DNA from: Gammaproteobacteria bacterium
GTDB lineage: Bacteria; Pseudomonadota; Gammaproteobacteria; SURF-13
NCBI GenBank assembly: GCA_030680605.1
Contig: JAUXUQ010000013.1
Coordinates: 1 to 64,000 of the forward strand
Length of the DNA stretch: 64,000 bases
Reading direction: 5' to 3'
Position 1 is the stretch's first letter, and each line of letters opens with the position of its first letter. The notes below the pieces were generated by a model. It was not told the origin of the DNA, searched no databases, and worked only from the letters and a program-made list of their open reading frames with translations. Both the position numbers and the translations under genes were made by a program. Positions 4,205 to 21,060 of the stretch are shown here, in pieces.

Positions 4205-5448
4205 TGGATTTATTACGCTTCACTACCGCAGGCAGCGTCGACGATGGCAAGAGCACGCTCATCGGCCGCCTGCTCTACGATGCCAAGTCCATCTTTGAAG
4301 ACCAGTTGCAGGCCATGGAGATCAGCACAGAGCGGCGCGGTGGCACCGGCGTTGACCTGTCGCTGCTCACCGACGGCCTGCAGGCGGAACGCGAGCAGGG
4401 CATTACCATCGATGTCGCTTACCGCTATTTCGCCACACCCAGGCGCAAATTCATTATTGCCGACACCCCCGGCCACGAGCAGTACACGCGCAATATGGTC
4501 ACCGGCGCCTCGACCGCCAATCTGGCCATCGTGCTGATTGACGCGCGCAAGGGTGTTCTCACCCAGTCGCGCCGTCACGCCTACATCGCGCGCCTGCTCG
4601 GCATTCCGCACCTGATTGCCGCCGTCAACAAGATGGACCTGGTCGATTACTCGGAAGCAACGTACCAGGCCATCAAGACCGAGTTCAGCGCCTTCTGCGA
4701 GCAGCTGGGCGCCCGCGATGTGCACTTCATCCCGATCTCGGCGCTGCACGGTGACAACGTGGTGGAAAAAAGCACGCACATGCCGTGGTACGCCGGTGCG
4801 CCGCTGCTCGATGCGCTGGAATCCACCCCCATCCTGCATGACATCAACCAGCGCGACTTCCGCTTCCCGGTGCAACTGGTGTGCAGCCCGCAGATATCAG
4901 GCCTGCCGGACTTCCGCGGCTACATGGGGCGCATCGAATCCGGCCACATCCGTGTCGGCGACGAGATCGTGGTACTGCCTTCGGGGCACCGCTCGCGCAT
5001 CCAGGACATCGTCACCTACAACGGCAGCCTCAACGAGGCCTGTGCGCCGCAATCCGTCACCCTCACGCTGCAAGACCATATCGATATCTCGCGCGGCGAC
5101 ATGCTGGTACGCCCCGAAAAACTCCCGCGCAGCACGCGCGAGCTGCATGCCACCCTGTGCTGGATGAGCGAACAGCCACTGCACCCCGGCGGCAAGTATC
5201 TCATCAAGCACACCACTCAGACGGCCAAGGCGCTGATAAAAACCATCGAACACAAAGTGGATATCAACACCCTGGCCACGGGCCCGGCGAGCGAATTGCA
5301 GATGAACGAGATTGGCCGCGTGCAGATCACGCTGCAACGCCCCGTGATCTGCGATGCTTACCGCGACAACCGCGCCAGCGGCGCCTTCATTGTCATCGAC
5401 GAGCACAGCAACAACACCGTCGCGGCAGGCATGATCGATGCGGAGTGA
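4204..5448 (+). CDS. cysN: Sulfate adenylyltransferase subunit 1, GTPase (CysN)
   Basis: This regulatory GTPase subunit of ATP sulfurylase couples GTP hydrolysis to APS formation. All G motifs are visible: GSVDDGKST (10-18), DTPGH (87-91), NKMD (142-145) and a later ISAL. Domains II and III follow. At 414 residues it is the stand-alone CysN form without the fused CysC kinase found in CysNC proteins. The start lacks the N-terminal extension of enterobacterial CysN. It overlaps cysD by one base. Confidence 0.95.
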   Translation: MDLLRFTTAGSVDDGKSTLIGRLLYDAKSIFEDQLQAMEISTERRGGTGVDLSLLTDGLQAEREQGITIDVAYRYFATPRRKFIIADTPGHEQYTRNMVTGASTANLAIVLIDARKGVLTQSRRHAYIARLLGIPHLIAAVNKMDLVDYSEATYQAIKTEFSAFCEQLGARDVHFIPISALHGDNVVEKSTHMPWYAGAPLLDALESTPILHDINQRDFRFPVQLVCSPQISGLPDFRGYMGRIESGHIRVGDEIVVLPSGHRSRIQDIVTYNGSLNEACAPQSVTLTLQDHIDISRGDMLVRPEKLPRSTRELHATLCWMSEQPLHPGGKYLIKHTTQTAKALIKTIEHKVDINTLATGPASELQMNEIGRVQITLQRPVICDAYRDNRASGAFIVIDEHSNNTVAAGMIDAE

Positions 5449-5548
5449 TACCAGCGTCACCTGAACATATCCAGTGCCGCGTTGTCAGGCCGCACCCTTT
5501 GCCTGTAGTATTGTTGAATTCCCTGCAAGCCGCCTGCGGATTGACCGA

Positions 5549-6940
5549 GTGCCTATACCCCGATCCTCTGTTGCCAGCATTGCATGGCCCGCGTTGCCCA
5601 CGCCGGAGGCAGCGGCCATGCTTGCCATGCAATACCAGTTGGAACAGAGCCAGTGGTGGCCACCGGAAGTCCTGCTGGAGCAGCAATTGCGTCAGCTCTC
5701 GACGCTACTCGCGCACGCCTACGAAACCATCCCCTTCTATCGGGAGCGCCTCAGGTCGGTGGGCTTTGACCCAAAGAGCGGCCTCACCTGGGACATGTTC
5801 ACAAGCCTTCCGCTGCTGCGGCGCTCCGAGGTGCAGTCGGCGGGCGAGGCCTTGCTCAGCCAGAAGCCACTTCGCGAGCATGGAAAAATCGCCGAAGGCA
5901 AAACCTCCGGCTCCACGGGGCGCCCAATCAAATTTTATGGCACCCAACTCGGCCGGACTTTCTGGCAGATACTCACACTGCGCGAACACCTGTGGCACCA
6001 GAGGGACTTTAGTGGCACCCTGGCCGCTATCCGTTCTCGCGCGCCCAGCCTGGATCGGCGCGGCTGGGGCCCTTCCACCGATGTTGCGTTCGATACCGGC
6101 CCGTGCGCATCCATCGACATCTGCACCGATGTTCAGCGCCAGCTGAAGTGGCTGCAGCAACAGAATCCGGATTACCTGTTGAGCTACCCGTCCAATGTGC
6201 GGGCCTTGGCCAGGGCCTGCCTTGAACAGGGCATAAAGCTGCCACGGTTGCGTGAGGTGCGCACCCTCAGTGAAACACTCAACCCGGATCTGCGCGCGCT
6301 CTGCCGCGAGGCATGGGATGTGCCGGTAGTGGACATGTATAGCGCGGCAGAGGTAGGCCACATCGCCCTGCAATGCCCGGAACATGAGCACTACCACATT
6401 CAGTCTGAAACCGTTCTGGTGGAGATCCTGAATGCGGAGGACAAACCGTGCCAGCCCGGTGAAATCGGCAGGGTAGTGCTGACTGCCCTGCATAACTCCG
6501 CCATGCCCCTCATCCGCTACGAGATCATGGATTATGCCGAAGCCGGCGCCCGCTGCCCTTGCGGGCGCGGCTTGCCGGTCATCACGCGCATACTGGGCCG
6601 GCAAAGAAACCTGATCACCCTCCCCGATGGCCGGCAACACTGTCCTGATACCGGATACAAGACCTGGTTCGGCCTTGCCCCCATACAGCAATTTCAGATC
6701 ATCCAGCATTCCCTGCAACAGATCGAGGTCAAGCTCGTCATGCCGCGGCCCTTGACGCAGGACGAACAGGATAAAATGACGGCCATCCTGCACACATCCC
6801 TGGGCCACCCTTTTGATATCATGTTTTCCTATCACGATGATATCCCCCGCAGCACGGGAGGCAAGTTTGAGGAATTCATGTCAAAGGTCTCATTGCCGCA
6901 TGGCGCTGCACACCCTCTATCCCAAGGCGACCAAACGTAG
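5549..6940 (+). CDS. CapK/PaaK-family adenylate-forming enzyme, copy 1
   Basis: This is a member of the phenylacetate-CoA ligase-like (CapK, COG1541) branch of adenylate-forming enzymes. These activate a carboxylic acid with ATP, and some then form a thioester or amide. Visible landmarks are the phosphate-binding motif SGSTGRPI, the YSAAEVGHIALQCPEHEHY block, LIRYEIMDYAEAG, a CPCGRGLP zinc-like/cysteine motif and the terminal STGGKFEEF. An open frame reaches 5474, but similarity to copy 2 begins at the GTG at 5549, so I prefer that start. The substrate cannot be read from sequence. It is followed by the phosphohydrolase gene, with a 44-nt gap. Confidence 0.8.
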   Translation: MPIPRSSVASIAWPALPTPEAAAMLAMQYQLEQSQWWPPEVLLEQQLRQLSTLLAHAYETIPFYRERLRSVGFDPKSGLTWDMFTSLPLLRRSEVQSAGEALLSQKPLREHGKIAEGKTSGSTGRPIKFYGTQLGRTFWQILTLREHLWHQRDFSGTLAAIRSRAPSLDRRGWGPSTDVAFDTGPCASIDICTDVQRQLKWLQQQNPDYLLSYPSNVRALARACLEQGIKLPRLREVRTLSETLNPDLRALCREAWDVPVVDMYSAAEVGHIALQCPEHEHYHIQSETVLVEILNAEDKPCQPGEIGRVVLTALHNSAMPLIRYEIMDYAEAGARCPCGRGLPVITRILGRQRNLITLPDGRQHCPDTGYKTWFGLAPIQQFQIIQHSLQQIEVKLVMPRPLTQDEQDKMTAILHTSLGHPFDIMFSYHDDIPRSTGGKFEEFMSKVSLPHGAAHPLSQGDQT

Positions 6941-6984
6941 CGCTTCCGCCAAGCCAGGACATCACCCACAACGAGGTATCAGCC

Positions 6985-8592
6985 GTGAACAATAAAATTA
7001 TTGCAGTGTCCTTCGACGCCATGTCTCCGGTACTGCTCGAAATGCAGATCAAGGCGGGCCATTTGCCCAATCTTGCGCGGCTGATGCGTGAGGGCGCCTA
7101 TGGCCGTCTGCACAAGCCTGAGATACTGCCGCATGAAAACAGCTGGTCTGCCTTTCTCACCGGGACCACGCCCGAGCACACAGGCGAGTGGGGACACATG
7201 AGCTATGCCCCCGACAGCTACACCTTCCGGGAATTACCGGCCTACGACAATAAGCAGGCCCGGCCCTTTTACTGCCTGGACCCCAAGCCTCATGTGGCGA
7301 TTTTCGATGTCCCCACCACCCGGGTAGAACCCTCGACCCACGGTATCCAGATTTTCGGCTGGAGCGTGGAGGCCAACCAGTTCCTGCGTCAGTCATCGCC
7401 GCCCGAGTTGTTGAGTGAGCTGACTGACCGCTACGGCACCCATCCAGCCTTCGCGACACTCGACACGCGGGCACTTAACGACCCGGAGGGTAACCCGGTT
7501 TCCTCGTTCAGAATGCCCAACCTGTATGATTTGCCCGCACTGCTGACGCTGAACACGGCGATGATCGACGCGATGGCCCAGCGCACCCATATCATCCGGG
7601 ATCTGGCCGCGCGCGAAGATTGGGACCTACTGCTCAGCGCCTATGGCGAGATTCACACCGTGGGTCACATGCTCTGGCATCTGGGCATGCCCCACCCCTT
7701 GCATGACGCCTTCCAGGCGCAACTGGACGGCGCCCAGCCCCTGCAGGCCGCGCTTGACGCGCTGGACAGGGAGGCGGGGGAACTGGAGGCGTTGACGCCT
7801 GAGGACGGGTATTTGCTGATCTTTTCCGTGTCCGGGATGTCGCCGGTCAATTCGGACATGGTACAGATGCTGTTCCTGCCTGAATTCCTCTACCGCTGGC
7901 AAACCGGGCAAGCCGCCCTCGCCGCCGGTGACCCGGATCGCCCGGTGCCGCCGCCTGCTGTCCATTACCACCGGCACTGGAAGGACGAAATCTGGGCCCT
8001 GCGAACCCCGGCAGGCGAGCGGGATCTGATCTCCCCGGCTGAACTGGAACGCCAGAACGACCCCGTCGACTGGAATCCAACGCGCTGGTTTCAACCCCTA
8101 TGGCCCCGCATGAAGGCCTTTGCCCTGCCCAACTACTATCACGGCATGGTACGCCTGAACGTCCGGGGACGGGATGGCCAAGGGATAGTGGCGCCGGACG
8201 ATTATGGCCGGGAATGCCAGACACTGGCGGATGCCCTGCTCAAGCTTACCGATGCCCGCAGTGGCCGCCCCATAGTGAAGGAAGTCACGCTCACCCGTCG
8301 CCACGCCCTGGAAGACGCCCCGCTGGCCGGCCCTGCTGATCTCATCGTGCACTGGGAGGCAGGCCCCCCTGTGGATACGGTACAAAGCCCGGACATTGGC
8401 CGCATTGGCCCGGTGCCTTATTTCCGCTCCGGGGGTCACGCCCCCACCGGCCTCTGCCTCATCCGCGGCCCCGGCATTGAGCCCGGCAGTCGGTTGCCTG
8501 ACGATGCGCAGGTCACCGACCTCACCGCCAGCCTGCTCAATCTCATGGGACGGACTGTTCCACCCCATATCGAAGGCCGATCCTGGTGGTAG
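6985..8592 (+). CDS. Alkaline-phosphatase-superfamily phosphohydrolase / phosphodiesterase
   Basis: The 535-residue protein starts at GTG and belongs to the type I phosphodiesterase / predicted AP-superfamily phosphohydrolase group. It has the early metal-binding Asp11 (VSFDAMS), the nucleophile region PHENSWSAFLTG (49-60) followed by PEHTGEWGH, and a later metal site GEIHTVGHMLWH. Family members cleave phosphate mono- or diesters using two metal ions; the substrate here is unknown. No signal peptide is evident, so it is probably cytoplasmic. A truncated second copy of the same gene starts directly after its stop codon, which points to a tandem duplication. Confidence 0.8.
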   Translation: MNNKIIAVSFDAMSPVLLEMQIKAGHLPNLARLMREGAYGRLHKPEILPHENSWSAFLTGTTPEHTGEWGHMSYAPDSYTFRELPAYDNKQARPFYCLDPKPHVAIFDVPTTRVEPSTHGIQIFGWSVEANQFLRQSSPPELLSELTDRYGTHPAFATLDTRALNDPEGNPVSSFRMPNLYDLPALLTLNTAMIDAMAQRTHIIRDLAAREDWDLLLSAYGEIHTVGHMLWHLGMPHPLHDAFQAQLDGAQPLQAALDALDREAGELEALTPEDGYLLIFSVSGMSPVNSDMVQMLFLPEFLYRWQTGQAALAAGDPDRPVPPPAVHYHRHWKDEIWALRTPAGERDLISPAELERQNDPVDWNPTRWFQPLWPRMKAFALPNYYHGMVRLNVRGRDGQGIVAPDDYGRECQTLADALLKLTDARSGRPIVKEVTLTRRHALEDAPLAGPADLIVHWEAGPPVDTVQSPDIGRIGPVPYFRSGGHAPTGLCLIRGPGIEPGSRLPDDAQVTDLTASLLNLMGRTVPPHIEGRSWW

Positions 8593-8595
8593 TCC

Positions 8596-8743
8596 CCGGT
8601 ACTGCTCGAAATGCAGATCAAGGCGGACCCTATGCCTAATCTTGCGCGGCTGATGCGCAAAGGCGACTATGGCCGTCTACACAAGCCTGATGTGCTACCG
8701 CATGATAACAGCTGGTCGACCTTTCTCACCGGCACCACGCCCT
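8596..8743 (+). pseudogene. 5' fragment of a second phosphohydrolase gene
   Basis: This stretch repeats, with scattered substitutions, bases about 7027-7174 of the preceding phosphohydrolase gene. It starts at the codon for Pro15 right after the TAG of the intact copy and stays in frame for about 48 codons up to FLTGTTP, where it breaks at CCACGCCCT and ends in TAA. It lacks the first 14 codons and everything after residue about 63. The missing 3' end is found at 9606-9706, on the far side of the methyltransferase gene. Confidence 0.85.
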
Positions 8744-8751
8744 AACCTTCA

Positions 8752-9546
8752 ATGATCGACAGCTATACGGACATTTTCAATCGCCGGGGCCGCGACTATC
8801 ATCAGGCGATGACCCTCTTCCCTCACGCCAGGGTGGATGAGTTCACGCACCTGATCGATCTTGCCGGCATTCGCGCGGGGGACCGGATCTATGATATTCC
8901 GTCCGGCGGCGGCTATCTCAGAAACTTCATTCCCGGCGACACCCACCTGTGTGGAGTGGAAACATCGGCGGGGTTCTACGCCCTCAGCGAGGCGCAACCG
9001 CCCGATGAAAAGGTGTTGTGCGAGGACTTGGGCCATATTCCGCTGCCTTCCTCCAGCGCCCACAAGGTGCTGAGTCTGGCGGGATTGCACCATCTCGAGG
9101 ACAAGACCCCGTTTTATCGTGAGGCCGCTCGCTTGCTGGCCGAGGGCGGAGCGTTGTGCGTGGCCGATGTGCTTGAGGGCTCCCCGCCCGCCAGATTCCT
9201 CAACGACTTCCTCGACAAGCACTCGTCCATGGGCCACCGGGGGCTATTTATTACGGAAGGGGAGATCAGGCAGGAGATCGAGTCCGCTGGTTTTGCCGTC
9301 GAATACATCAACCCGACCTCGTTTGTCTGGAAGTTTCCCTCCCTGGATGGCATGGTTTCGTTTATGCGTCTGCTACTCGGCATAGATAAAGCGGACGGAG
9401 CCACGATACTGAAAGCCATCGATGACATTCTGGGCTACGAGAAGGTTGGCGACAGCTACCACATGAGCTGGGGGCTTTTATATCTTCGAGCAGTAAGCGC
9501 GCAGCGAAGCCAGCCAGCCGTCCTGCAAAACGGGGCGGATCAATAA
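8752..9546 (+). CDS. Class I SAM-dependent methyltransferase
   Basis: The 264-residue protein has a Rossmann-type methyltransferase core. Motif I is YDIPSGGGYL (47-56), a variant of the usual DxGxGxG, followed by GVETS (68-72), DLGHIPLPSSS and VLSLAGLHHLEDK (106-118), then AARLLAEGGALCVADV. The acceptor cannot be told from sequence. It sits inside the remains of a duplicated phosphohydrolase gene, so it arrived by recombination or insertion. Its first bases and the 9 nt before them recur after the third CapK gene at 19002-19033, suggesting it originally stood behind a CapK gene. Confidence 0.82.
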   Translation: MIDSYTDIFNRRGRDYHQAMTLFPHARVDEFTHLIDLAGIRAGDRIYDIPSGGGYLRNFIPGDTHLCGVETSAGFYALSEAQPPDEKVLCEDLGHIPLPSSSAHKVLSLAGLHHLEDKTPFYREAARLLAEGGALCVADVLEGSPPARFLNDFLDKHSSMGHRGLFITEGEIRQEIESAGFAVEYINPTSFVWKFPSLDGMVSFMRLLLGIDKADGATILKAIDDILGYEKVGDSYHMSWGLLYLRAVSAQRSQPAVLQNGADQ

Positions 9547-9605
9547 GCCTCGCCCCGTGCTACGGGCCCAATACTGCTTTAAGGAACCTCTGGACAAGCC
9601 ACGCC

Positions 9606-9706
9606 GCCTGCCCGACGATGCGCAGGTCACCGACCTCACCGCCAGCCTGCTCAAGCTCATGGGACGGACTGTTCCACCCCATATCGAAGGCCGATCCTGG
9701 TGGTAG
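9606..9706 (+). pseudogene. 3' fragment of the second phosphohydrolase gene
   Basis: This stretch is nearly identical to the last 34 codons of the intact phosphohydrolase gene (about 8492-8592), ending in the same GRSWW-stop. One visible change turns Asn to Lys in LLNLMG. Together with 8596-8743 it brackets the methyltransferase gene. The middle of this second copy is gone. Confidence 0.85.
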
Positions 9707-9713
9707 CCGCCGT

Positions 9714-10634
9714 TCAGCGGGCAAAGCGGTAGGCGCGGATTGTCTCCGGCTGGCCCGCATCCACGGTGGCGAGCGCCTGCCGCAGCCAGGGCGCGAGCCG
9801 GAAGTTGATCGCGACCTCAAAGTCACTGGCCACCGCCTGATAATAGTCCAGCGCCGCCACCAGGGTGGCGCGCGCCTCGGCGGCCCGTCCTTGCCGGGCC
9901 TGGATCTCAGCCAGCAGCAGGCGGCTGTTGAGTGACTCCACCGGGAAAAGGCCGCTATCGCCGGCCGCTGCCGCCAGATGCTTCGCCGCCTCGTCCCAGC
10001 GCCCGGCCTGGTAGTCCATGTAGCCGAGGAACCAGCGATAGCGCAGCCAGTCCGGCTCCAGCGCAATCGCGCGCTCCAGCCGCCGGCGGTACAGACGGGT
10101 CTTGTCCGGCGCTTTGGCGGGGTCGGGGAGGTGCGTCACCTCCAGCCCCTGCAGCCACAGCGCCCGCTGACCGCGTTCCCGAATGTCAATCTGGGCGTTG
10201 TCATGCACCAGGCCACGCTTGCGCAACCCCTTGCGAAACAGAAACAGCTTGTAGTCCTCGAACGGGGGGGCGCCGTCCAGATGATTGGTCCAGCGCCCGA
10301 AATAGCCTGCCACGTCCGGCGCGTGGCGCATGGCGCGGAAATGATGCAGCGCCTCCGGCGCAATACGCTCGTCGGCGTCGAGGCTGAGTATCCAGTCGGC
10401 CTCAGCCAACCCGATGGCCCGGTTACGTTGGTCGCACTTGCAGTAACAACGGGCCTCCTCCAGCACGCCGTCGAGCGGCTCGATACCATAGCGACGGCGG
10501 AGCAGATCGGGCGTGCCGTCGGATGAGCCGGTATCGATGACGACAATCTGATCGACGAGACCGTGAACCGGATCGAGACAATCGACGATGCGGTCGATCT
10601 CATCCTTGACGACCATGCACAGCGCGAGCTTCAT
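9714..10634 (-). CDS. Family 2 glycosyltransferase with TPR-like C-terminal part
   Basis: The N-terminal half is a GT-A fold glycosyltransferase: MKLALCMVVKDEIDRI, VVIDTGSSDGT and ILSLDADERI (the DxD metal site) are typical of GT2 enzymes that use nucleotide sugars. The C-terminal third is rich in Ala and Leu with repeated helical segments resembling TPRs (LEPDWLRYRWFLGYMDYQAG...). I chose the ATG at 10634; an upstream in-frame ATG at 10679 adds 15 unconserved residues. It is convergent with the phosphohydrolase/methyltransferase block. The product may be a glycosylated metabolite or a surface glycan; I cannot tell which. Confidence 0.85.
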   Translation of the reverse strand: MKLALCMVVKDEIDRIVDCLDPVHGLVDQIVVIDTGSSDGTPDLLRRRYGIEPLDGVLEEARCYCKCDQRNRAIGLAEADWILSLDADERIAPEALHHFRAMRHAPDVAGYFGRWTNHLDGAPPFEDYKLFLFRKGLRKRGLVHDNAQIDIRERGQRALWLQGLEVTHLPDPAKAPDKTRLYRRRLERAIALEPDWLRYRWFLGYMDYQAGRWDEAAKHLAAAAGDSGLFPVESLNSRLLLAEIQARQGRAAEARATLVAALDYYQAVASDFEVAINFRLAPWLRQALATVDAGQPETIRAYRFAR

Positions 10635-10703
10635 CGGAGTCTCCGGCCAGCAAGTGGGTATAGTGCGAATTTCATGCATGACTCGGGCAGCAGGCCATCA
10701 GGG

Positions 10704-12047
10704 CTACAACTCGGAGCGAAAGTCCTCGAACTTTCCGCCGGCGCTGCGCGGGATGTCTTCGCAGTAGGTAAAGTTGATCGTGAACTCGAACCCGAGCTTG
10801 AACTGAAGGTGCGTCCGCAGGGCCTCCTCCTCCTGGCTGAGTGGCCAGGCGGTCACCAGCATGACCTCGATCGTGTCCAGGCTGCGCTGGATAAATTGAT
10901 ACTGTTTGACGCTCGTCGCCGCCGGGTGTGTGCGGTCAATGCCCATTAATGGCCAGCGTTTGGCTCCGGAAGGCAGTGTCAGCATGTTGCGCACCCGCCC
11001 CATGATCCGCTTCAGCACCGGCAAGCCGCGCCCGCACGGGCACGCCTCCCCCACTTCCGCGAAATCGCCGATTTCATAGCGTATCAACGGCATCGCCATG
11101 TTGTGCAGGGTGGTGATCACCACCCTGCCGACCTCGCCCGGCTTGCAGGGCTCGCCCTGCGCGTCGAGAATTTCCACCAGCACGCCTTCCGACTGGATGT
11201 GGTAATGCCCCGTCTCCGGGCACTGGAGGGCAATGTAGCCGACCTCCTGGGCGGAATAGACATCCACCAGCCGAACACCCCATGCTTCGCGGCACAGCCG
11301 GTGCAGCTCCGGTGTCACCACCTCGCCCACCGCACGGACTTCGCGCAGCTTTCCCGGACGTATACCTTGGGCCAGACAAAGCCGGGCCAGGGCCTCGATA
11401 TTCGAGGGAAAGCTCAGCAGGTAATCCGGGTCCTGTTCCTGCAACCACGCCGCCTGCTGCCCGGTATCGGTTTCAATCTTGAGCGCAGCGCTCGGCCCGG
11501 TATCAAACACAACGTCGGTGGAGGGTCCCCAGCCCGACCGCGCACCGGCCTCCGGCACCTTGCGGATCGCCGCCAGTTTCCCCATGAAATCCCGCTGGTG
11601 CCACAAGTGCTCGCGCAGCGTGAATACGCGCCAGAAAAATTGCGTCATCGTGGTATTGAAAAAGCGGATCGGCCGGCCGGTGGAGCCGGAGGTCTGCCCC
11701 TCGCTCACGGCCCCGTGTTCCGGCGGCGGCCTGGTGCTCAGCAACGCCCCTGCGGCAGCCTGCACATCCGCGCGGCTCAAGAGCGGCAGTTTCGGGAAAT
11801 CATCCGGCCAATGGGCAGACTGCGGGTCAAGGCCGCAGGCCAGAAACCGCTCCCGATAAAAGGGGATGGTTTCGCAGGCGTGCTCCAGCGTTTTGGCGAG
11901 CTGGCGCAATTGCTGCTCGCGCAGCATTTCCGGCGGCCACCACTGGCTCTGCTCCAGCTGGTATTGCAGTGCGAGCATGGCCGCGGCCTGCGGCGCGGGC
12001 AACGCGGGCCAGGTAATACCGGCCACAGACGAGCGGGGTATCAGCAC
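10704..12047 (-). CDS. CapK/PaaK-family adenylate-forming enzyme, copy 2
   Basis: This is a paralogue of the gene at 5549-6940, alignable from the GTG at 12047 (LIPRSSV) to the terminal SAGGKFEDF. It has the same landmarks: SGSTGRPIRF, YSAQEVGYIALQCPETGHY, LIRYEIGDFAEVG and CPCGRGLPV. An alternative ATG lies at 12110, but the residues before 12047 are not shared with copy 1. It is on the same strand as the glycosyltransferase downstream (69-nt gap) and the oxygenase block upstream. Its substrate probably differs somewhat from copy 1, given many substitutions. Confidence 0.8.
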   Translation of the reverse strand: MLIPRSSVAGITWPALPAPQAAAMLALQYQLEQSQWWPPEMLREQQLRQLAKTLEHACETIPFYRERFLACGLDPQSAHWPDDFPKLPLLSRADVQAAAGALLSTRPPPEHGAVSEGQTSGSTGRPIRFFNTTMTQFFWRVFTLREHLWHQRDFMGKLAAIRKVPEAGARSGWGPSTDVVFDTGPSAALKIETDTGQQAAWLQEQDPDYLLSFPSNIEALARLCLAQGIRPGKLREVRAVGEVVTPELHRLCREAWGVRLVDVYSAQEVGYIALQCPETGHYHIQSEGVLVEILDAQGEPCKPGEVGRVVITTLHNMAMPLIRYEIGDFAEVGEACPCGRGLPVLKRIMGRVRNMLTLPSGAKRWPLMGIDRTHPAATSVKQYQFIQRSLDTIEVMLVTAWPLSQEEEALRTHLQFKLGFEFTINFTYCEDIPRSAGGKFEDFRSEL

Positions 12048-12110
12048 GCGGTCAATCAGGTGAACCGGCAACGGCCACGACAATAGTGGCGCTTCCGCAC
12101 GTGAGTGCAT

Positions 12111-12429
12111 GCTGCACTCGCAGCACGCTCATGCTTCAGTGGCGGCGCTGCGCTTACATGTGTGGGTAGCAAGTACATAATTTGAAAGGCAGACCGGATC
12201 GACCAACCTGCGCGAGCATCTCCCTGTAACAACCACCGATCCCGGTAGTATCGTGCGTTAGCCGGAAACAGTCTCAAGCCTTATGCGCCCCCCCGGCACA
12301 GCAGTCACCCGTTCGCATAAAAAAAACGTGACACCGAAGCACTCAGTTTAAACAACTGTTGTTATTATTAGAAGCTCAACTTCAAACCCGTTATCAAGCC
12401 CAGCAACCATTCGGCGCATGGCAGCATAC
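12111..12429. other. Intergenic region between the oxygenase gene and CapK copy 2
   Basis: No convincing gene is visible. The right half (12317-12401) holds a decayed copy of the 3' end and terminator of the porin gene, listed separately. The left half shows nothing recognisable apart from a run of C at about 12284-12291. Confidence 0.6.
12317..12401 (-). pseudogene. Relic of a porin gene 3' end with decayed terminator
   Basis: The stretch matches 21531-21617, the end of the intact porin gene and its terminator. It shares an ATAAAAAAA run, CACCGAAGC / CGCCGAAGC, AAACAACT, TTATTATTAGAAGCT and CAAACCCGTTAT. Read on the minus strand it gives DNGFEV followed by an early stop, against NNGFEVGIKHSF in the intact porin. 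The terminator hairpin has lost its pairing. The rest of the gene is missing. Confidence 0.75.
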
Positions 12430-13308
12430 TCATCGCAGGTGCCCAAACCTGCTAATCAATATCCGTTCGCAGGGCTGAGCCGTCATTTCCCGTCCATGCA
12501 TATATCGCGTGTTATCGACGATGAGTACATCATTGGCCATCCAACGATGATGATAACTCACCCTGTCGTGCGCATCGATGAGCGCATTGACCACCTCGTC
12601 GGCCAGTAACTCGCCATCACCAAAATACACACGATTTGTCGGTTTCACATAAACCGGCAAACCTTTATAACGGGGATGTGCAATCTGCGGTAAATGGGCC
12701 AGAACGCCGTTGATGAAAGCCGCGCTCCCGCTGCGGGTGCAGGTAATCGCCGGGGCTGAGTAATACAGGTGCAACATCCCGTCCGCCAGGCTGAAGCGAA
12801 CATTTTTGAATCTGCCCAGCAGCGCCCGCAACTCTTTTTCCGTATGGACGCCGAATTCGTTTTTCCAGCGCTCGGCCTCCCACCGGGATTCATAGGTAAC
12901 ACCCGTATCTTCCAACCGGAATCGCAGATCATCAGGCATTACTTCCAGCATTTCCACGCCATCGACCAATGTGGTTTCGCCGCCAGCCTCAACTGGCGGT
13001 GTCACGCACATGAAAAAGCACACCTCTGGCGGCGGCGGATACGGGCGATAGGCCCCCTCAGAATGTCCAAGCAAAATGAAATTGTTGCGAAATACTTCGG
13101 TGGTAAAACCATCCCCGGCCGTTTGGCGCAGCACCTGACGGGTGCCCACCCCGTGAAAATCCTTGCAGAATTGCCGGGTCATCGACTCGAAACCGTCGAG
13201 GTGAAATTCAAATCCCCGCAAGAGCACGACCCCATATTGTTCAAAAGCAGACCGGATGGCTGCTGTTTGCGTGCCATCCGAGGCGTAGCGCATCTCGAAA
13301 ACTGTCAT
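12430..13308 (-). CDS. TauD/clavaminate-synthase-like Fe(II)/2-oxoglutarate oxygenase
   Basis: The 292-residue protein has the facial triad of this fold: His82 and Glu84 in GHSEGAYRPYPP, the distal His271 in DNTRYMHGR, and Arg282 as the likely 2-oxoglutarate anchor. The HxE form and the CFFMCVTPPVEAGGETTLVDG segment resemble SyrP/clavaminate synthase-type hydroxylases, which act on amino acids or peptides in natural-product pathways; TauD itself uses HxD. It lies 9 nt downstream of the P450 gene on the same strand, so the two oxygenases are probably cotranscribed and act on the same product. Confidence 0.85.
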   Translation of the reverse strand: MTVFEMRYASDGTQTAAIRSAFEQYGVVLLRGFEFHLDGFESMTRQFCKDFHGVGTRQVLRQTAGDGFTTEVFRNNFILLGHSEGAYRPYPPPPEVCFFMCVTPPVEAGGETTLVDGVEMLEVMPDDLRFRLEDTGVTYESRWEAERWKNEFGVHTEKELRALLGRFKNVRFSLADGMLHLYYSAPAITCTRSGSAAFINGVLAHLPQIAHPRYKGLPVYVKPTNRVYFGDGELLADEVVNALIDAHDRVSYHHRWMANDVLIVDNTRYMHGREMTAQPCERILISRFGHLR

Positions 13309-13317
13309 GGCGTTGGC

Positions 13318-14508
13318 CTAACCCAGGGTGGCGGGCAAGGCCTCCAACCCGCGAAAGAAGGAATTTCTACGCCATTGAGGGCGCTCATTCAGGAGATGCA
13401 GGGCTGGACATAGCGCCAGCATTCTGTCCAACGCAATCCGGGCCTCAAGCCGCGCCAATGTCTTGCCCAGGCAATTATGCAGCCCCACCCCAAAAGCCAG
13501 ATGGCGGTTGGGGGTGCGCCGGATATCGAAGCGATCGGGGTCCGGAAACTCGGTTTCATCGCGGTTCGCGGCACCGATAATGATGCCCAATTGTTGACCG
13601 GGTTCCAGGCGCATTCCGGCCAGCTCCATCGGTTCGACCGCGATACGGAATGTGGTTCTTTGCTCCGGGCTTTCAAAGCGCAGAATTTCTTCTACCGCAC
13701 CCGGCATGAGTTCCGGCTGCTCCCGCAACAGCGCCCATTGCTCCGGGTGACTCAAAAGCAACCAAAGCCCGTTGCCAATCAGGTTGATAATAGTCTCATG
13801 CCCGGCGAACACCAGAAAACTCACCATGCCGATCAACTCATCGCGCTGGATTTTTCCCTCTGCCTCCGCGTTGACCAGAAAGCCGAGAAGGTCGTCAGCC
13901 GGTGCACGGTGCTTTACCGCGATCAGTTGCTCGACATAAGACAGAAAAGCAAGTAATGCGCTATGCTGCTTTAGCAGAATCTCGTCCGATGCCAGCACAG
14001 AATCAAAACCATCCGCCAGCACCAATGACCACGCGCGAATCTGGGGCAGGTCGCTCACGGGTACGCCCACCAAATGGGCAATGACCCGCAGGGGGAGTTG
14101 CCCGGCAAAGTCCGCGATCAGGTCAATCCTGGTTCTTCCCTGCAACTCCAGAATCAGCGCATCCGCGACCAAGGCAATATGCGGCTCCAACTGGTCGAGG
14201 TACTGCGCCGACAAATAGTCCGCGACGAGCCGGCGCAAACGCAGGTGATCCGGGGCATCCCTTATTAACATTATCAGGTCAAATGGCGTTGATGTACCCG
14301 GTGTCCGCACGCTGCGGATGTTCTTGGAGACCGCCGTGACCTCCCTGAAAATCGTCAGCGCATCCGCATAACGGCTGAACAGCCACAGACCGTTGCTGGT
14401 TGTGTTTTGGGTATGAGGTAGCCAGAAGGGCTTGCCGGCAGCACGGATGCGTGCGTAGTACGGATAGGGATTCTGAAAAAAATCAGGTTGATTCAGGTTC
14501 AATTCCAT
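13318..14508 (-). CDS. Cytochrome P450
   Basis: The 396-residue protein carries all P450 hallmarks: the I-helix oxygen-activation motif AGHETIINL, the K-helix ExxR in EEILRFESP, and the heme-binding FGVGLHNCLGKTLAR with thiolate ligand Cys346. It is soluble, like most bacterial CYPs, and needs an external ferredoxin. The start MELNLNQPDFF at 14508 is preceded by GGAGAAG at a good distance; the open frame runs on to 14616 without conserved sequence. It stands between the hotdog-like gene and the oxygenase gene. The substrate is unknown. Confidence 0.93.
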   Translation of the reverse strand: MELNLNQPDFFQNPYPYYARIRAAGKPFWLPHTQNTTSNGLWLFSRYADALTIFREVTAVSKNIRSVRTPGTSTPFDLIMLIRDAPDHLRLRRLVADYLSAQYLDQLEPHIALVADALILELQGRTRIDLIADFAGQLPLRVIAHLVGVPVSDLPQIRAWSLVLADGFDSVLASDEILLKQHSALLAFLSYVEQLIAVKHRAPADDLLGFLVNAEAEGKIQRDELIGMVSFLVFAGHETIINLIGNGLWLLLSHPEQWALLREQPELMPGAVEEILRFESPEQRTTFRIAVEPMELAGMRLEPGQQLGIIIGAANRDETEFPDPDRFDIRRTPNRHLAFGVGLHNCLGKTLARLEARIALDRMLALCPALHLLNERPQWRRNSFFRGLEALPATLG

Positions 14509-14566
14509 CAACTTCTCCAGCCTGCATCGTCGAGACATTGAACCGTGACGCAAATCAATCCTTTTA

Positions 14567-15031
14567 TCACGACAGGAATCCCTTGAGCTTGATCTCGAAC
14601 AAACCACCCTGATCATCCGTCACCCGGTTGGCGGCCACGCCATACCAGTTTTCACCACGCTTTCGCATCGAAACCACTTCCATCTCAACCTTGATATTTG
14701 AGGGGTCACGGATGGCGCGGACGCAACGTGTCGAGCTCTCCAGCATCCAGACCTCGCGTGTCTTTTTGGAGAGCCCGGCCCTGACGTGCATATAGATGAC
14801 CATCAACTGCGACACAAACTCCACTGCGGTAAAAATCGCCAGGTGGAATCCCTTCGCATCGGTATCAGATACATAGGTCGTGCGCATGGAAACCTTGGCG
14901 GTGAGGCCCTTGTCATTTATTTCAACCGCTTCGATCTGCCAGGATTCCTGCTTGCGTCCCTCATTCAGGTAATGGGAAGACAGGTTCTGGATGTCCGCTG
15001 CAGACAAGCGGACAGGTACGGGTGCATTCAT
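14567..15031 (-). CDS. Hotdog-fold thioesterase/dehydratase-like protein
   Basis: The 154-residue protein, starting MNAPVPVRLSA, looks like a single hotdog domain: GFHLAIFTAVEFVSQLMVIYMH would be the long central helix and flanking strand, followed by beta-rich segments (RCVRAIRDPSNIKVEMEV). I base this on pattern, not on a diagnostic motif. It may be FcoT-like or FabZ-like, acting on an acyl thioester, but a non-catalytic role is possible. Its ATG overlaps the TGA of the ATP-grasp gene (ATGA), so the two are translationally coupled. The next gene is the P450, 58 nt away. Confidence 0.55.
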   Translation of the reverse strand: MNAPVPVRLSAADIQNLSSHYLNEGRKQESWQIEAVEINDKGLTAKVSMRTTYVSDTDAKGFHLAIFTAVEFVSQLMVIYMHVRAGLSKKTREVWMLESSTRCVRAIRDPSNIKVEMEVVSMRKRGENWYGVAANRVTDDQGGLFEIKLKGFLS

Positions 15032-16947
15032 GGTTCGATCTCCGACAATTTTTGGAGCACTATACCGGCCAATGCGTCGGCCGGATAGGTTTTGATCTCG
15101 TGGCCCGACAGGCGACACGAAGCAGCGACCCAATCGGCGCAATCCTGATTGATGATGATGGGCCCAGAGCACATTTCTTGCAGGATTTGGGCAAACCCCT
15201 GCCAACGCTCCCAGACTTCGGGCCCGTTGCCCATGTCCGGCGGCCCTGCCAGCACGAGCACATCGAAGCGATCCACCGGCAACCCCGTTATCAGCATATG
15301 GTCGTCCACAACGCTGATAATGGCCACCTCTACCTGGGGATCGCTGATGAGCACCATGCCACCCCGGAGATTACCGCAAGGTTCCTGGATCACTGTCTGC
15401 CGGCCAATGTTTACCCCAGCCTGCGTAGCCACCCCTACACACCGGTCGGCTGATAAAGCTGTCACCAGCTGTTCGAGCCAGGCCTCACCCGCCACATCAC
15501 CCAGCACCATCACGACAGGAATCCGCCCCTGACCTTTGACCAATCGCTGCAACAGATAGGCCGGCAGGTGCGGCGCAAGCTGCGGCTGGGCATTCACCTC
15601 GCAGATGACCGCGCCCGTTTCCAGCCAGGAACGCCGGATATCCGGTATCAGCAGATCGACACCGGCCAGATCCAGGCGCAGCACCCGCACGGCACGTACG
15701 GCCAGGGCAAGGTTGTCGGGATGGGCCCCTTCCTGTGCCGGCACGGGTATGCCGCCGGAGGCCGCGTTGGCTGCGCCGCGCAGACGAACGAACCGCCCCT
15801 GGGCTGGCACTGCATCCGGAGTCAGTCCTTGCTCCAGCAGCAATTCCACAGCCTCTTCGTCCAAGGCGATACGCTTGAGGAGGGAATTGCTATCCGGGTC
15901 GCCCCGCCGGGGGTCGGCATTCGTTGCGGCCAGCAGATCAATGACCGTGCTGCTGCCATCGCCCGTGACGCCACCCGGCACGCGGTGGCTTACCCAAAAT
16001 ACCTCGCCCTGAAGCACCTGCAGGCGGTAGTCGTTGCCTTCAAAGTGTTTCTCCACCAGCACTGCACGCGACAACGCGCCGGCTTTGACAAAGGCCTTGC
16101 GCACCGCCTCGGCGGATTTCAGGCCGACGGATACACCGCGGCCACCATCCTTATCGGCAGGCTTGACTACAACGGGGTAGCCTAGCTGCTCCGCCAGCTT
16201 CACGGCTTCCTCAGCGTCAGCTGCACGAGCATGGGCCGGCACCGGGATTCCCGCCATTCTCAGTATGTGAGCCGCAGCCTGTTTATTACGCACAAGTCTT
16301 GCGGAAATGCACGGCGTCACATCCGTGAACGAGCTATCCAGCCAACGGGCGCGCGCTCCCCAGCCGAACTGGACCATGTTATTTTCCACGCATGACCAGG
16401 GGATGCCAGCATCCCGCGCTGCTTGCAGGAAGACTGGCGAATTCATCCCCTGGAGCGCCCTCCTCCTGATAGTCCTTGTCACTTCGGCCAATTCCGCCAA
16501 CAATGCCGTAACGGAATAACCTTCAACGACTTGGTTCATCACACGAACTACCCAGTCCAGGGCCAACCCTGTAGCGGAGTGTCCCTGCCCGATGGCAGGC
16601 AAGGCCACCCGTATGGCGCCTTCGGCAGCGCCAGGCCCGACAATGAGCCCCTCGCTGAAAACCGGGATACCTCCACTGCGCAACACCGCGACGGTTCCAC
16701 ACATGACGGGAACCAGCGGATGCGCATCAACCTGACCTGGGGGCTGGGGCGATTCATATTCCGTGAGCGCTTCCCTGAATATCCTGTCCAGTACCATCAG
16801 CGCCTCGCGCCTCACTCTGAACTGAAGGATAACCAGCTCCACCAAAAGAAATGGCTGGCTCATACCGGGCAAATATCCAGTACCTGCCCGAGTCTTCAGC
16901 ACCCCTATCGCCGGCTGCGTCATGCCTTGTGGCTCACCGTTCTCCAT
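15028..16947 (-). CDS. Cyanophycin-synthetase-like ATP-grasp protein with degenerate Mur-ligase part
   Basis: Residues about 190-470 of this 639-residue protein match the ATP-grasp domain of cyanophycin synthetase (CphA): FGWGARARWLDS (195-206), VVVKPADKDGGRGVSV (259-274), VEKHFEGNDYR, GVTGDGSSTVIDLL (327-339), NADPRRGD, ANAASGGIPV (393-402) and ICEVNAQPQLAPH. These enzymes join an amino group to an acyl phosphate. CphA goes on into a Mur-ligase domain with GTNGKTT; here the equivalent is GDVAGEA (483-489). The following VGVATQAGVNI...LISDPQVEVAII...RFDVLVLAG segment is still alignable but the ARGGILR motif is gone. The last Mur domain is absent (CphA is about 870-900 residues). The start is uncertain; ATG codons at residues 9 and 29 are alternatives. 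Confidence 0.8.
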   Translation of the reverse strand: MENGEPQGMTQPAIGVLKTRAGTGYLPGMSQPFLLVELVILQFRVRREALMVLDRIFREALTEYESPQPPGQVDAHPLVPVMCGTVAVLRSGGIPVFSEGLIVGPGAAEGAIRVALPAIGQGHSATGLALDWVVRVMNQVVEGYSVTALLAELAEVTRTIRRRALQGMNSPVFLQAARDAGIPWSCVENNMVQFGWGARARWLDSSFTDVTPCISARLVRNKQAAAHILRMAGIPVPAHARAADAEEAVKLAEQLGYPVVVKPADKDGGRGVSVGLKSAEAVRKAFVKAGALSRAVLVEKHFEGNDYRLQVLQGEVFWVSHRVPGGVTGDGSSTVIDLLAATNADPRRGDPDSNSLLKRIALDEEAVELLLEQGLTPDAVPAQGRFVRLRGAANAASGGIPVPAQEGAHPDNLALAVRAVRVLRLDLAGVDLLIPDIRRSWLETGAVICEVNAQPQLAPHLPAYLLQRLVKGQGRIPVVMVLGDVAGEAWLEQLVTALSADRCVGVATQAGVNIGRQTVIQEPCGNLRGGMVLISDPQVEVAIISVVDDHMLITGLPVDRFDVLVLAGPPDMGNGPEVWERWQGFAQILQEMCSGPIIINQDCADWVAASCRLSGHEIKTYPADALAGIVLQKLSEIEP

Positions 16948-17203
16948 CCAAACCTCTCATCGACGTGGGCCACCAAGATCAAGCCCCTGTGCATGGGTTC
17001 CAAAGCACATCACCACCCTGTTCTGTCTCCGATTCTCCGCCGCCCGCCATGGCTCTGCATGACCCAAAGCCCCCAAGGCGCTCGAAGGCCGGTTTGCATT
17101 ACCAGGCGAAGATGCAATGTCAGATCAAGCGGGGATAGTTGATGGGGGGGTGATATCAGCACGTGGGTCATGGTGCGTGCAGCGCTTCGTGGCACAGAGA
17201 CTG
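16948..17203. other. Intergenic region upstream of the ATP-grasp gene
   Basis: This is the likely promoter region for the minus-strand block ATP-grasp/hotdog/P450/oxygenase. I see no clear gene and no clear -35/-10 pair. A short open frame on the plus strand (16851-17138) overlaps the ATP-grasp gene and looks non-coding. Confidence 0.45.
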
Positions 17204-17416
17204 TCATGCAGCCCCGCAGCCTGACCTGCATCCGGGCTCATCAACCCACAGTTGCAATAAATCCAATGCTGCTGCTTTAGCGCCATCAATGCCCTTGCCG
17301 TGCGTTGTCAAATCAAGCACAGGTATATGGGCGCAGCAATATCCTTCCGGCAGCGAAGGGTCGTTAACCCTCTCGTATAAAATGGAGTAGAGCATCACCA
17401 TCTCTGCCATTAGCAA
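17204..17416 (-). CDS. Small HicB-like protein (orphan)
   Basis: The 70-residue product fits the HicB antitoxin-like pattern: a short strand (MLYSILYERV), EGYCCAHIPVLDLTTHGKG with the G-Y-x-A-x-x-P-x-L spacing, then an amphipathic helix DGAKAAALDLLQLWVDE. No HicA-like partner is adjacent. It sits next to a deleted copy of the porin locus, as the intact hicAB pair sits next to the intact porin, so it may be a leftover of a duplicated segment. ATG codons at residues 1, 4 and 7 are all possible starts. Confidence 0.45.
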   Translation of the reverse strand: MLMAEMVMLYSILYERVNDPSLPEGYCCAHIPVLDLTTHGKGIDGAKAAALDLLQLWVDEPGCRSGCGAA

Positions 17417-17480
17417 TGGGCATAGTGTACATCATACAAAATTGCAGGCGCGCATAAAAAACGGGCGCCCGAAACGAGGC
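17417..17480. other. Relic of the porin downstream flank, porin gene deleted
   Basis: This stretch parallels 21436-21550 downstream of the porin gene: GGGCA..AGTGTA, ACATCATAC, AAATTG, then CATAAAAAACGGGCGCC from the terminator. In the intact locus the porin gene follows; here the sequence passes straight to the dispersed hairpin repeat that lies on the other side of the porin at 22814. Confidence 0.65.
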
Positions 17481-17549
17481 AGGCCGGATCAAGCGTAGCG
17501 GAGCCGACGCCTGGTTTGTCGGTTCCGCCTTCGGCTTGAACCGACCTGC
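17481..17549. repeat. Dispersed hairpin repeat, copy 1
   Basis: About 70 bp with terminal complementary arms (AGGCCGG / CCGACCT) and the shared core GGATCAAGCGTAGCGGA. Copies 2 and 3 are at 22814-22885 and 23483-23555. It contains no gene. Confidence 0.85.
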
Positions 17550-17629
17550 AACCACGCCTCAGCTCGAGCACGATCACCCGGTGAACAATCCGCAGTGATG
17601 TGCAATAATGCGGCTGACCACACACAACC

Positions 17630-19012
17630 ATGACCCAGTTCCTCAGCCATCTCCCGCACATCCTCTGGCCGGCCGCGCCCAGTCCGGCGGGGGCGCAATT
17701 GCTGGCGCTGCTGTTTCAACTGCAGGACAGCCAATGGTGGCCGGCAAACAAACTGGAAGCCGGGCAGTTCCGGCAATTGCACGGGCTGCTGGCCCATGCC
17801 TGGGAAACCATCCCCTTCTATAGAGACCGGCTAACGGCGGCCGGCTTTCATCCTGATCACCCCTTGAAGCGCAAGCAGTGGCAACGCCTTCCCATCCTCA
17901 CCCGGAGCGAGGTTCAGGCCGCCGGGGAGGCGCTGTTCTGCCCCCGACCCCCCGACACCCACCTGCCCCTGCACCGCATCAGCACCTCCGGCTCCACGGG
18001 CAAGCCCATTACCGTACAAGGCACGGCGGTCACCCAGCAATTCCGTTCCGCCTTCGGCCTGCGTGACCATCTCTGGCAGCAGCGCGATTTCGGGGCCAAG
18101 CTCGCCGCCATCCGCGGCATCCACGACCCGGCCAAGCAGGGCGGCCACCAGCGGCACCCATCCTGGGCCCTGCCCGTCGCCTTTGTCTTCGCCTCCGGCC
18201 CCGCCAGCCTGCTCGAGATTACCGCTCCCATCGCCACCCAGGCCGACTGGCTGCTGCGCGAGGCGCCCGCCTATTTATTAACCTACCCCACCAACGCCCT
18301 GGCCCTGGCCGAACACTTTCTCGGCCACGGTTTGTCCCTGCCCTCATTGCGCCAGGTTCAAACCATTGGCGAAAGCCTCCCTGACAATCTGCGCTAGGCC
18401 TGCCGCGCGGCCTGGGGAGTGGATGTGGTGGACGTCTACAGCACCCAGGAGACGGGTATGCTGGCGCTACAGTGTCCGGAACACCCGCATTACCACGTGC
18501 AATCGGAGGGGATGCTGCTGGAAGTGCTGACCGATGACGGGCACCCCTGCCAGCCCGGCGAGGTTGGCCGGGTGGTGGTCACCCCGCTGCACAATTTCGC
18601 CACACCCCTCATCCGTTACGAGCTGGGGGACTACGCCGAGGTCGGCGCGCCGTGCGCCTGCGGCCGCGGCCTGCCGGTGCTCACGCGCATTCTGGGGCGC
18701 AGCCGCAACATGGTGCGGCTGCCCGATGGCAGCCGGCACTGGCCGAAGACCGGTTACGGAGCCTGGATGGGCATTGCCCCCATCAAGCAGTTTCAGTTGG
18801 TGCAGAAAACGCTGCATCACGTCGAGGCCAGACTGGTGATGCCGCGCCGCTTGCTGCCGGACGAAGAGGGCAAACTGACCACCATCCTCCAGCAAACGCT
18901 CGGCTACCCCTTCTCCATTACCTATTCCTACCCGGCGGAGATAGCAAGGAGCGCCGGCGGAAAGTTCGAGGACTTCATCTCCGAAGTGGCTGCGGGCGCG
19001 GCCACGCCCTGA
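17630..19012 (+). pseudogene. CapK/PaaK-family adenylate-forming enzyme, copy 3, with in-frame amber codon
   Basis: The full-length frame would give about 460 residues with all family landmarks: SGSTGKPITV, YSTQETGMLALQCPEHPHY, LIRYELGDYAEVG, CACGRGLPV and SAGGKFEDF. It is interrupted by one TAG at 18395-18397, between LPDNLR and ACRAAWGVDVVDVYS. The frame is the same on both sides, so this is a nonsense change and not a frameshift; CAG to TAG would explain it. Both halves remain free of other defects, which suggests the change is recent, a sequencing error or read through. It stands alone on the plus strand, opposite the oxygenase block. Confidence 0.85.
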
Positions 19013-19080
19013 CCTTCAATGATCGACAGCTATCGTATTATGAGGCGGGGGCTTTTGTGCCTTCGGGCGGCATGCGTGCA
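19002..19080 (+). pseudogene. Relic of the methyltransferase gene, internal part deleted
   Basis: Bases 19002-19033 match 8735-8766 with one mismatch (the start of the methyltransferase gene plus 16 nt before it). After a short unmatched stretch, GGGGCTTTT.T..CTTCG.GC at 19037-19058 resembles the end of the same gene (9472-9494). The rest, more than 700 bp, is missing. Confidence 0.7.
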
Positions 19081-19145
19081 GCCGGCGTAGCGTGCCCTGA
19101 CTTAATCAGAGGTTCCTGAATCCCATGCGAGCCCCCGGCCCATGC

Positions 19146-20387
19146 TCATATGCCGCGGCCCAGCCAGTTTTCCACTGCTTCGTGTAGCGCCCGGAGCTTG
19201 CCGAACACTTCGCGCGTTTCACCGCCCCGCGTCGAGCCGTCCACCACGCCTATGCCGCCCCGCGCCAGGATAGTCCCGGGTTGCACTTCCACCGAGCGCA
19301 GGTTCAGGAAACCGCGAACGCTTCCGTCGGCATCCAGTCTGCCCACCATGCCGCCATAGAAACGCGGCGGACTCAGCACGAGTTCGAACTGCGCGGCGAG
19401 ATCTTCCGGATAAGATACAAACGGGGGAAATGCGCGTTCGAGCAACGCCACGCCATCCAGGCAGGTCGAGAGCGCGCCCTCGACGCGGCTCCACAGGTGG
19501 CGCACATACCGCAAGCGCCTGATCCTGCGCTCAAACGTAACTCGCACGCTGCCCGGGAGACAGACCGAATACGCGAATGCAAGCGCGCGCTCGAGCGCCG
19601 CGGCATGTTCGCGCCGCTCTTTGGCCGACGCAAGAAGCTCCGTCTCCAGCGCCGCATCAAATTCGGCATCCGGATGCACAGGTCGCGTCCCCGCCACTGC
19701 ATCGAGGCGCAATAGCCCTCGTTCTGATTCGACTACATTCTCCGGGCTGGCGCCGAGCGATACGACCTCGCCCGGCAACTCCAGCCAATGAAACGCGGGC
19801 GCGTCAGGCTCGGACGCGGCCAGCAGCCAGGCAAGCTCCAGAGCATCCAGCGAAGCATCCACGGCGCGGCGGAACCCGCGCGTCACCAGGAGCTTGCCCG
19901 GACGTCCCTGCACAAGCGCGATTGCATGTTCCAGCTTCGCCGCAAAGGCATCGTCCGGCTCAGTCTCCCAGCCGGTCATGAGCTGTTGCGAAACGGGCTG
20001 GCATGCGGGGGGAGCGGTACCCGGCGCGGCCAGCGCCGCGTCTACTATCGCCTTGAGGCCGGATGTCGGCGCGCCATGGAAGACAGCGCGGGCGCCGGAG
20101 GCGTCGAAGCGCAGCTCGACGAGCGGACGCACGCATAGCGCGCGGGCCGGTTCTCGACCGCCCGGGGCAGCCTCCGAGCCGAATAGGAAGAACGCGGGCT
20201 TGCGTCCGGCGCGCAGCGCGCTGAAAAACCCCGCGCCGTCGTGCGATACCCGCCCGGCGGCGTCTTCCCTGGCTGCGGCGCCGACCCATATCGTATTGAG
20301 TTCGCGCGAGTGGAGCAGATACGTCGGTCCGCCCAACATGCGCAGTGCCCGGCAAGCGGCGAAGGCATGGGCTGGGTCTATGCTCAT
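19146..20387 (-). CDS. Chorismate-utilising enzyme (anthranilate/isochorismate/salicylate synthase family)
   Basis: The 413-residue protein has the chorismate-binding fold of TrpE, PabB and EntC. Visible are GASPENVV, AGTRPVHPD, the KERREH element, YGGMVGRLDADG and LARGGIGVVDGS near the C-terminus. It differs from the canonical TrpE at 31885-33435: the metal-binding element is LLASAKERREH where TrpE has [11 protein letters not shown]. No glutamine amidotransferase is next to it, so ammonia-dependent anthranilate synthesis is less likely than formation of isochorismate, salicylate or a related acid. It may supply an aromatic acid to the CapK-type enzymes, but this is inference from proximity. 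Confidence 0.8.
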   Translation of the reverse strand: MSIDPAHAFAACRALRMLGGPTYLLHSRELNTIWVGAAAREDAAGRVSHDGAGFFSALRAGRKPAFFLFGSEAAPGGREPARALCVRPLVELRFDASGARAVFHGAPTSGLKAIVDAALAAPGTAPPACQPVSQQLMTGWETEPDDAFAAKLEHAIALVQGRPGKLLVTRGFRRAVDASLDALELAWLLAASEPDAPAFHWLELPGEVVSLGASPENVVESERGLLRLDAVAGTRPVHPDAEFDAALETELLASAKERREHAAALERALAFAYSVCLPGSVRVTFERRIRRLRYVRHLWSRVEGALSTCLDGVALLERAFPPFVSYPEDLAAQFELVLSPPRFYGGMVGRLDADGSVRGFLNLRSVEVQPGTILARGGIGVVDGSTRGGETREVFGKLRALHEAVENWLGRGI

Positions 20388-20457
20388 GCCTGCCGCAGCG
20401 ATGTCACTTTTACCATCGCTACCTTCATAACCCCCATCATCGCTCTTGTTTCCATCC

Positions 20458-20486
20458 GGCGCATTACGGCTCGCGCCTAATGCGCC
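20458..20486. repeat. Palindromic intergenic element
   Basis: Nine-base perfect arms GGCGCATTA / TAATGCGCC enclose an 11-nt loop. The sequence resembles widely seen proteobacterial intergenic palindromes of the GGGCGCATTA type. It lies upstream of the chorismate-enzyme gene. The rest of 20388-20612 shows no gene. Confidence 0.6.
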
Positions 20487-20612
20487 CTACGCTGCTGACC
20501 CCTTTGTTCTGTGTTCTGTGTTTAGCTAGACCTGACCCTCACGGTCCATCACGGCTCACGGCCAGGTGCTTCACGGCAAGACGGTATCTGACCCTGTGTT
20601 CTCGTGGCAACT

Positions 20613-20807: not shown

Positions 20808-20829
20808 GATTCACTCCACTAATAAGGGA

Positions 20830-21045: not shown

Positions 21046-21060
21046 AGATTCGACCTCCGC

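Follow-up and report, generated by a model that had tools for sequence, protein, structure and literature searches.

A recurrent operon with a CphA-like ligase, a hotdog protein and oxygenases in a partly decayed gene block of a gammaproteobacterium

Do genes for adenylating enzymes, a cyanophycin-synthetase-like ligase, oxygenases and tailoring enzymes that lie within 15 kb of each other form one biosynthetic cluster, or have they merely gathered at one place? The question is raised by a gammaproteobacterial genome (assembly GCA_030680605.1), in which we analysed a stretch of 64,000 nt (contig JAUXUQ010000013.1, positions 1 to 64,000 of the forward strand), referred to below as the window. 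An earlier note, made from the sequence alone, read the whole block as a possible undescribed cluster without NRPS or PKS, suggestive of a carrier-independent, amide-forming pathway to a small oxidised, possibly aromatic metabolite.

The gene block and its insertion site

Genes in the block were called from six-frame ORFs and family scans, which located all the genes named in the earlier note. Neither NRPS nor PKS families, nor a carrier protein, appeared among the ORFs scanned; no exporter or self-protection gene was recognised within the block. The features are as follows.

5474-6940, + strand: CapK1, PaaK-like adenylating enzyme, intact
6985-8592, + strand: AP (alkaline-phosphatase)-superfamily hydrolase (Pfam PF01663)
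8592-8742, + strand: remnant of the 5' part of a second AP gene (88% to 7023-7173)
8752-9546, + strand: SAM methyltransferase (Pfam PF08241), of a family that adjoins other CphA-like ligases
9609-9712, + strand: remnant of the 3' end of the second AP gene (96% to 8495-8598)
9714-10679, - strand: GT2 glycosyltransferase with a TPR-like tail (family scan), putative pathway member
10704-12110, - strand: CapK2, intact, 61% identical to CapK1
12430-13308, - strand: TauD/clavaminate-synthase-like 2-oxoglutarate oxygenase (Pfam PF02668; HxE...H triad)
13318-14616, - strand: cytochrome P450 (Pfam PF00067; CYP107-like by PDB matches), likelier start 14508
14567-15031, - strand: hotdog protein, 154 aa (AlphaFold model), whose homologues adjoin the ligase
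15028-16947, - strand: 639-aa CphA-like ATP-grasp ligase, whose gene opens the core operon (partial NCBIfam cyanophycin synthetase match; CphA by PDB)
17630-19012, + strand: CapK3, with an in-frame TAG at 18395-18397
19146-20387, - strand: chorismate-binding enzyme, putative pathway member

The ligase, hotdog, P450 and TauD genes make up what we call the core operon (12430-16947, minus strand). They are tightly spaced; the ligase gene ends within the first codons of the hotdog gene, its stop codon overlapping the hotdog ATG (ATGA).

Genome G002, of the same genus, has cysN (window 4204-5448) next to the porin gene (21580-22713). This genome has no counterpart of window DNA 5444-17236 and 17548-21533 and shares only the piece between them, 17237-17547; compared with it, the block consists of two insertions in the interval from cysN to the porin gene. 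A porin gene is also adjacent to cysN in genomes G001, G004 and G005, and a contig of G003 keeps cysN, with the porin region matched in parts by DNA. Since G003 also shares window DNA 20813-21380 (96% DNA identity) at the same site, the insertion site is a hotspot. Judged by eye, the DNA shared with G003 is a small cassette resembling a HicA/HicB-type toxin-antitoxin pair. Neither the ligase nor the block was found in any of five members of the order, and GC goes down to 0.54-0.57 across 12-15 kb. Between genes, a 75-nt repeat occurs three times (17475-17549, 22811-22885 and 23481-23555); it is present too at the empty site of the same-genus genomes.

Recurrence of the core operon

A class-wide search returned one relative of the ligase (43% identity, in genome G020), standing without the core partners. 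We aligned it with the window ligase and with a full-length CphA-like protein of the host. The ligase-family-specific block of this alignment (A1), scanned over ~85,000 species genomes, gave 26 ligase loci; the two scan patterns used both favour close members, and several loci come from MAG contigs whose ends lie close to the operon.

The core operon, whole or partial, was found in ten other proteobacterial genomes from several proteobacterial orders. Thus the co-occurrence that the earlier note proposed to look for, of the ATP-grasp, hotdog and P450 genes and sometimes TauD, does exist. The hotdog gene adjoins the ligase in 10 of the 26 loci, eight of them also with the P450. TauD is absent from most core loci, and the P450 from some: TauD accompanies the hotdog-ligase pair in two loci (L023 and L033, where it adjoins the hotdog or P450 gene), from Marinobacterium (all four genes) and Sphingorhabdus (without the P450), and in Thiobacillus (L018) a 27-residue TauD remnant follows the P450. 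The closest copy is in a Nitrosovibrio MAG, which has the ligase and P450 at 78-81% identity; within a sample of 369 genomes of the class the hotdog gene occurs in the host genome only. A plasmid collection yielded only distant matches to CphA and TauD and none to the hotdog protein, and the TauD relatives examined in two plasmids sit in other contexts.

The genes of the core are inherited together. In a tree of 36 ligases one branch with 97/96 support splits the hotdog-linked from the methyltransferase-linked ligases, and none of 500 shuffles grouped the hotdog-linked ligases as closely. Pairwise distances of the ligases correlate with those of the P450s (r=0.96, nine loci) and of the hotdog proteins (r=0.65, 11 loci), with permutation p<0.001 in each case; these tests, the tree included, rest on small numbers.

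A precursor peptide or carrier protein was sought by comparing small ORFs between loci and was rejected: what matched was mostly core-gene sequence read in another frame, and no small ORF outside these genes is common to non-sister loci. In the open-licence literature we found no published cluster that combines these genes. Recurrence of the four-gene operon in unrelated bacteria indicates a probably real, uncharacterised pathway. On balance we consider it probable that the core is a biosynthetic operon that has spread horizontally, and that its product is an oxidised amide assembled with neither NRPS nor PKS nor a dedicated carrier protein. The idea of a carrier-independent, probably amide-forming system therefore stands for the conserved core; it is not supported for the whole 15 kb as one conserved cluster.

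The CapK, AP and methyltransferase half of the block

That the 15 kb are mostly accessory genes which gathered at an insertion hotspot and have nothing to do with each other, with only the four-gene operon coherent and the rest bystanders, has in our judgement about an even chance of being true. The possibility, raised at the outset, that the neighbours are conserved together nowhere else can be set aside for the core; the CapK, AP, GT2 and chorismate genes were not found with the core elsewhere. The two separate insertions at one site and the different content of this site in G003 speak for accumulation, as do the duplications, fusion and decay seen in the block.

Among 24 ligase-bearing genomes CapK is nearly absent: a single relative was found (27%), apparently not on the contig that carries the ligase locus, and within the host genome close homologues of CapK are confined to the three of the block. 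AP relatives occur in just two of the 24. Against mere accumulation, one of these two lies amid ligase paralogues (L064), and other adenylate-forming enzymes are found near ligases in L026, L037 and L038. The methyltransferase, too, argues against it. Exactly one relative was found in each of eight of the 24 genomes (E < 1e-36), adjoining the ligase in six and a second ligase paralogue in a seventh. Its inclusion in the cluster was thus borne out in so far as the family recurs beside other CphA-like ligases; since relatives also occur without a ligase nearby (L058, L060, L061 and L062), it is a ligase partner, but not an exclusive one. CapK1-3 group with the PaaK-like ligases (PaaK, AjiA1, DVU_1553) by weak matches far under the family cut-offs, and the methyltransferase matches the DVU_1556 methyltransferase model weakly, also far under the cut-off.

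This half of the block consists of shuffled, partly decayed duplicates. The second AP gene is cut in two, and the methyltransferase lies between the pieces. At 8735 and again at 19002 stands a 32-nt repeat in which a run of codons for 'Thr-Pro-stop' leads straight into the start of the methyltransferase, and after CapK3 only the first methyltransferase codons are left (19002-19033). From these repeats and fragments there was presumably once a CapK-methyltransferase pair, duplicated and then broken. The single TAG that splits CapK3 makes it either a pseudogene or a sequencing error; two of the three CapK genes are intact as sequenced. With CapK3 broken and neighbouring genes decayed, the host may be losing the pathway.

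Three of the loci have features of their own. In locus L064 (4508-17231, on the contig of L019) genes for an AP hydrolase and a glycosyltransferase accompany four or more members of the ligase family, which possibly make several amide bonds in series. In L062 (8772-16985) relatives of the methyltransferase and CapK accompany two QueC-like genes, a PTPS/QueD-like gene and a sulfotransferase; the region may be a deazapurine metabolite cluster. In L061 (6679-11844) the methyltransferase relative is accompanied by a different P450, a sulfotransferase and a protein of 410 aa that matches no family.

Predicted chemistry of the core

We infer the chemical steps, the substrates and the product as follows. 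The hotdog protein would take a thioester, supplied by primary metabolism or formed by a CapK, and release a free modified carboxylic acid. The CphA-derived ligase would phosphorylate a carboxylate and couple it with an amine; it would thus be an amide ligase with one active site and not a cyanophycin polymerase. The P450, together with the 2-oxoglutarate oxygenase where present, would oxidise either the acid or the amide. The host's methyltransferase and the accessory CapK, AP and chorismate genes would probably decorate the product or feed the pathway.

The surroundings of other ligases could point to a different role, namely decoration of a surface glycan or capsule, in which the ligase adds amino compounds to sugar acids and CapK, GT and AP are glycan enzymes. 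Glycosyltransferase or sugar-nucleotide genes are found near ligases in L019, L025, L030 and L034 and beside AP in L063, and the window has its GT2 gene. Still, among the genes scanned no polysaccharide genes were recognised beside the core in L018, L020, L021 and L023, and a P450 with a hotdog protein is unusual in glycan loci; we regard this role as unlikely. Exporter parts were observed near ligases in L025, L030 and L034.

The hotdog protein has no match in Pfam and no sequence match in the PDB, and its fold is taken from an AlphaFold model (pLDDT 91). Two residues, His63 and Glu71, do not vary among 11 sequences and, judging from this conservation, could be catalytic. Foldseek gives SAV606 as the top match (E 1e-7) and lists Rv0098 as well. 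Thioesterases of the SAV606 type both attach glycine to an unsaturated thioester and hydrolyse it, and they pair with 2OG oxygenases in isonitrile pathways (PMC11284099). Accordingly, the hotdog protein might be a glycine-adding thioesterase of the SAV606/CmiS1 type, with TauD turning the N-carboxymethyl group into an isonitrile and the ATP-grasp enzyme replacing an NRPS. We regard this version, too, as unlikely: no sequence similarity to these thioesterases was detected, and FabZ fits the model as well as SAV606 by VIA-align (Z 15.8, rmsd 2.9 and Z 15.5, rmsd 3.1, respectively, over 141 residues each), FabZ being a dehydratase. It also requires TauD, which most core loci do not have. A TauD profile search (E up to 0.01) returned chains of the PvcB, clavaminate and carbapenem synthase types and none named as the isonitrile-forming ScoE. 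The iron triad of TauD (H82-x-E84 and H271) is invariant in three sequences (alignment A3).

The ligase model (pLDDT 87) matches CphA1 over the whole length (7wae: Z 29.4, rmsd 4.7, 613 residues) and CphA2, an enzyme that condenses beta-Asp-Arg dipeptides, as well (7ta5: Z 25.6, rmsd 5.4, 562 residues); with both it shares the three-domain fold and the ATP/Mg residues, and unlike both it sits in a biosynthetic operon. K222, K262, R308, D431 and E450 are invariant in 20 of 20 aligned ligases, likewise R322 and N394; in TeCphA1, Lys220, Lys261, Arg309, Asp431 and Glu450 bind ATP/Mg or stabilise the acyl-phosphate (PMC9427784). The Mur P-loop (GKT), which belongs to the second active site of CphA1, is missing in all 20. 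Position 268, where CphA has the P-loop His267, is Gly in 17 of the 20 and His in none, and position 458, the aspartate-binding Arg458 in CphA, is Ser or Ala in 13 (Ala in the window). With the ATP/Mg residues kept and the Mur P-loop and the residues that CphA uses on aspartate lost, we infer from sequence a one-site amide ligase with a substrate other than that of CphA. The whole-length CphA fold and the lack of the Mur P-loop, as in CphA2 (PMC9427784), might suggest that the ligase makes a storage polymer, cyanophycin or a variant like it, and that the other genes are there by chance; this is very improbable, given that the CphA substrate residues His267 and Arg458 are replaced, that the ligase is co-inherited with the hotdog protein and P450 and has up to five paralogues per locus, and that the host has a separate full-length CphA-like gene. 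The latter gene (L002, G000:C1:109988-111367) is CphA1-like, with an intact Mur P-loop and an unusual ATP-grasp loop, KASGKGKG, that has no His.

The hallmark of NRPS-independent ATP-grasp pathways, an amide-ligase-type gene and tailoring enzymes in a conserved operon with no NRPS, is seen in the core. The E-64 pathway (cp1 and cp2 clusters of Aspergillus) uses a 2OG oxygenase, an ATP-grasp enzyme and an adenylating enzyme independently of NRPS, and sequence identity of its Cp1B to other characterised ATP-grasp enzymes is undetectable (PMC12568646). The block resembles the E-64 and dapdiamide-type pathways in combining an Fe/2OG oxygenase, an ATP-grasp ligase and an adenylate-forming enzyme in a small NRPS-free cluster. 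It differs from them in that the ATP-grasp enzyme is of the CphA type, a hotdog protein and a P450 are added and no amino-acid decarboxylase was seen.

We put forward, tentatively, an undescribed class of natural-product pathways, in which a one-site CphA-derived ligase would yield oxidised amides together with a P450, a 2OG oxygenase and a hotdog protein of a new family, all encoded by an operon mobile across several proteobacterial orders, with sister multi-ligase clusters. The ligase-family motif WLDS[ST]FTD together with the hotdog gene, which is unnamed in the Pfam library, provides a genome-mining marker for clusters that have no NRPS, PKS or RiPP hallmarks. The data suggest that cyanophycin synthetase was converted in evolution to an amide ligase for small molecules, an idea that can be tested in Undibacterium flavidum, U. 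fentianense and Allochromatium palmeri.

The product is possibly aromatic, on the basis only of the CapK and chorismate genes. Relatives of the chorismate enzyme in genomes of the same order are just ~30% identical, none of them an orthologue, and all its family scores are far under the cut-offs. At the site of the PIKGT-type motif of PabB (aminodeoxychorismate synthase) it reads DAVAGTRP, with no lysine there. In locus L030 (42-2373) there is a chorismate enzyme 36% identical to that of the window, with salicylate synthase as best match; it lies beside a sulfotransferase, 8 kb from a ligase.
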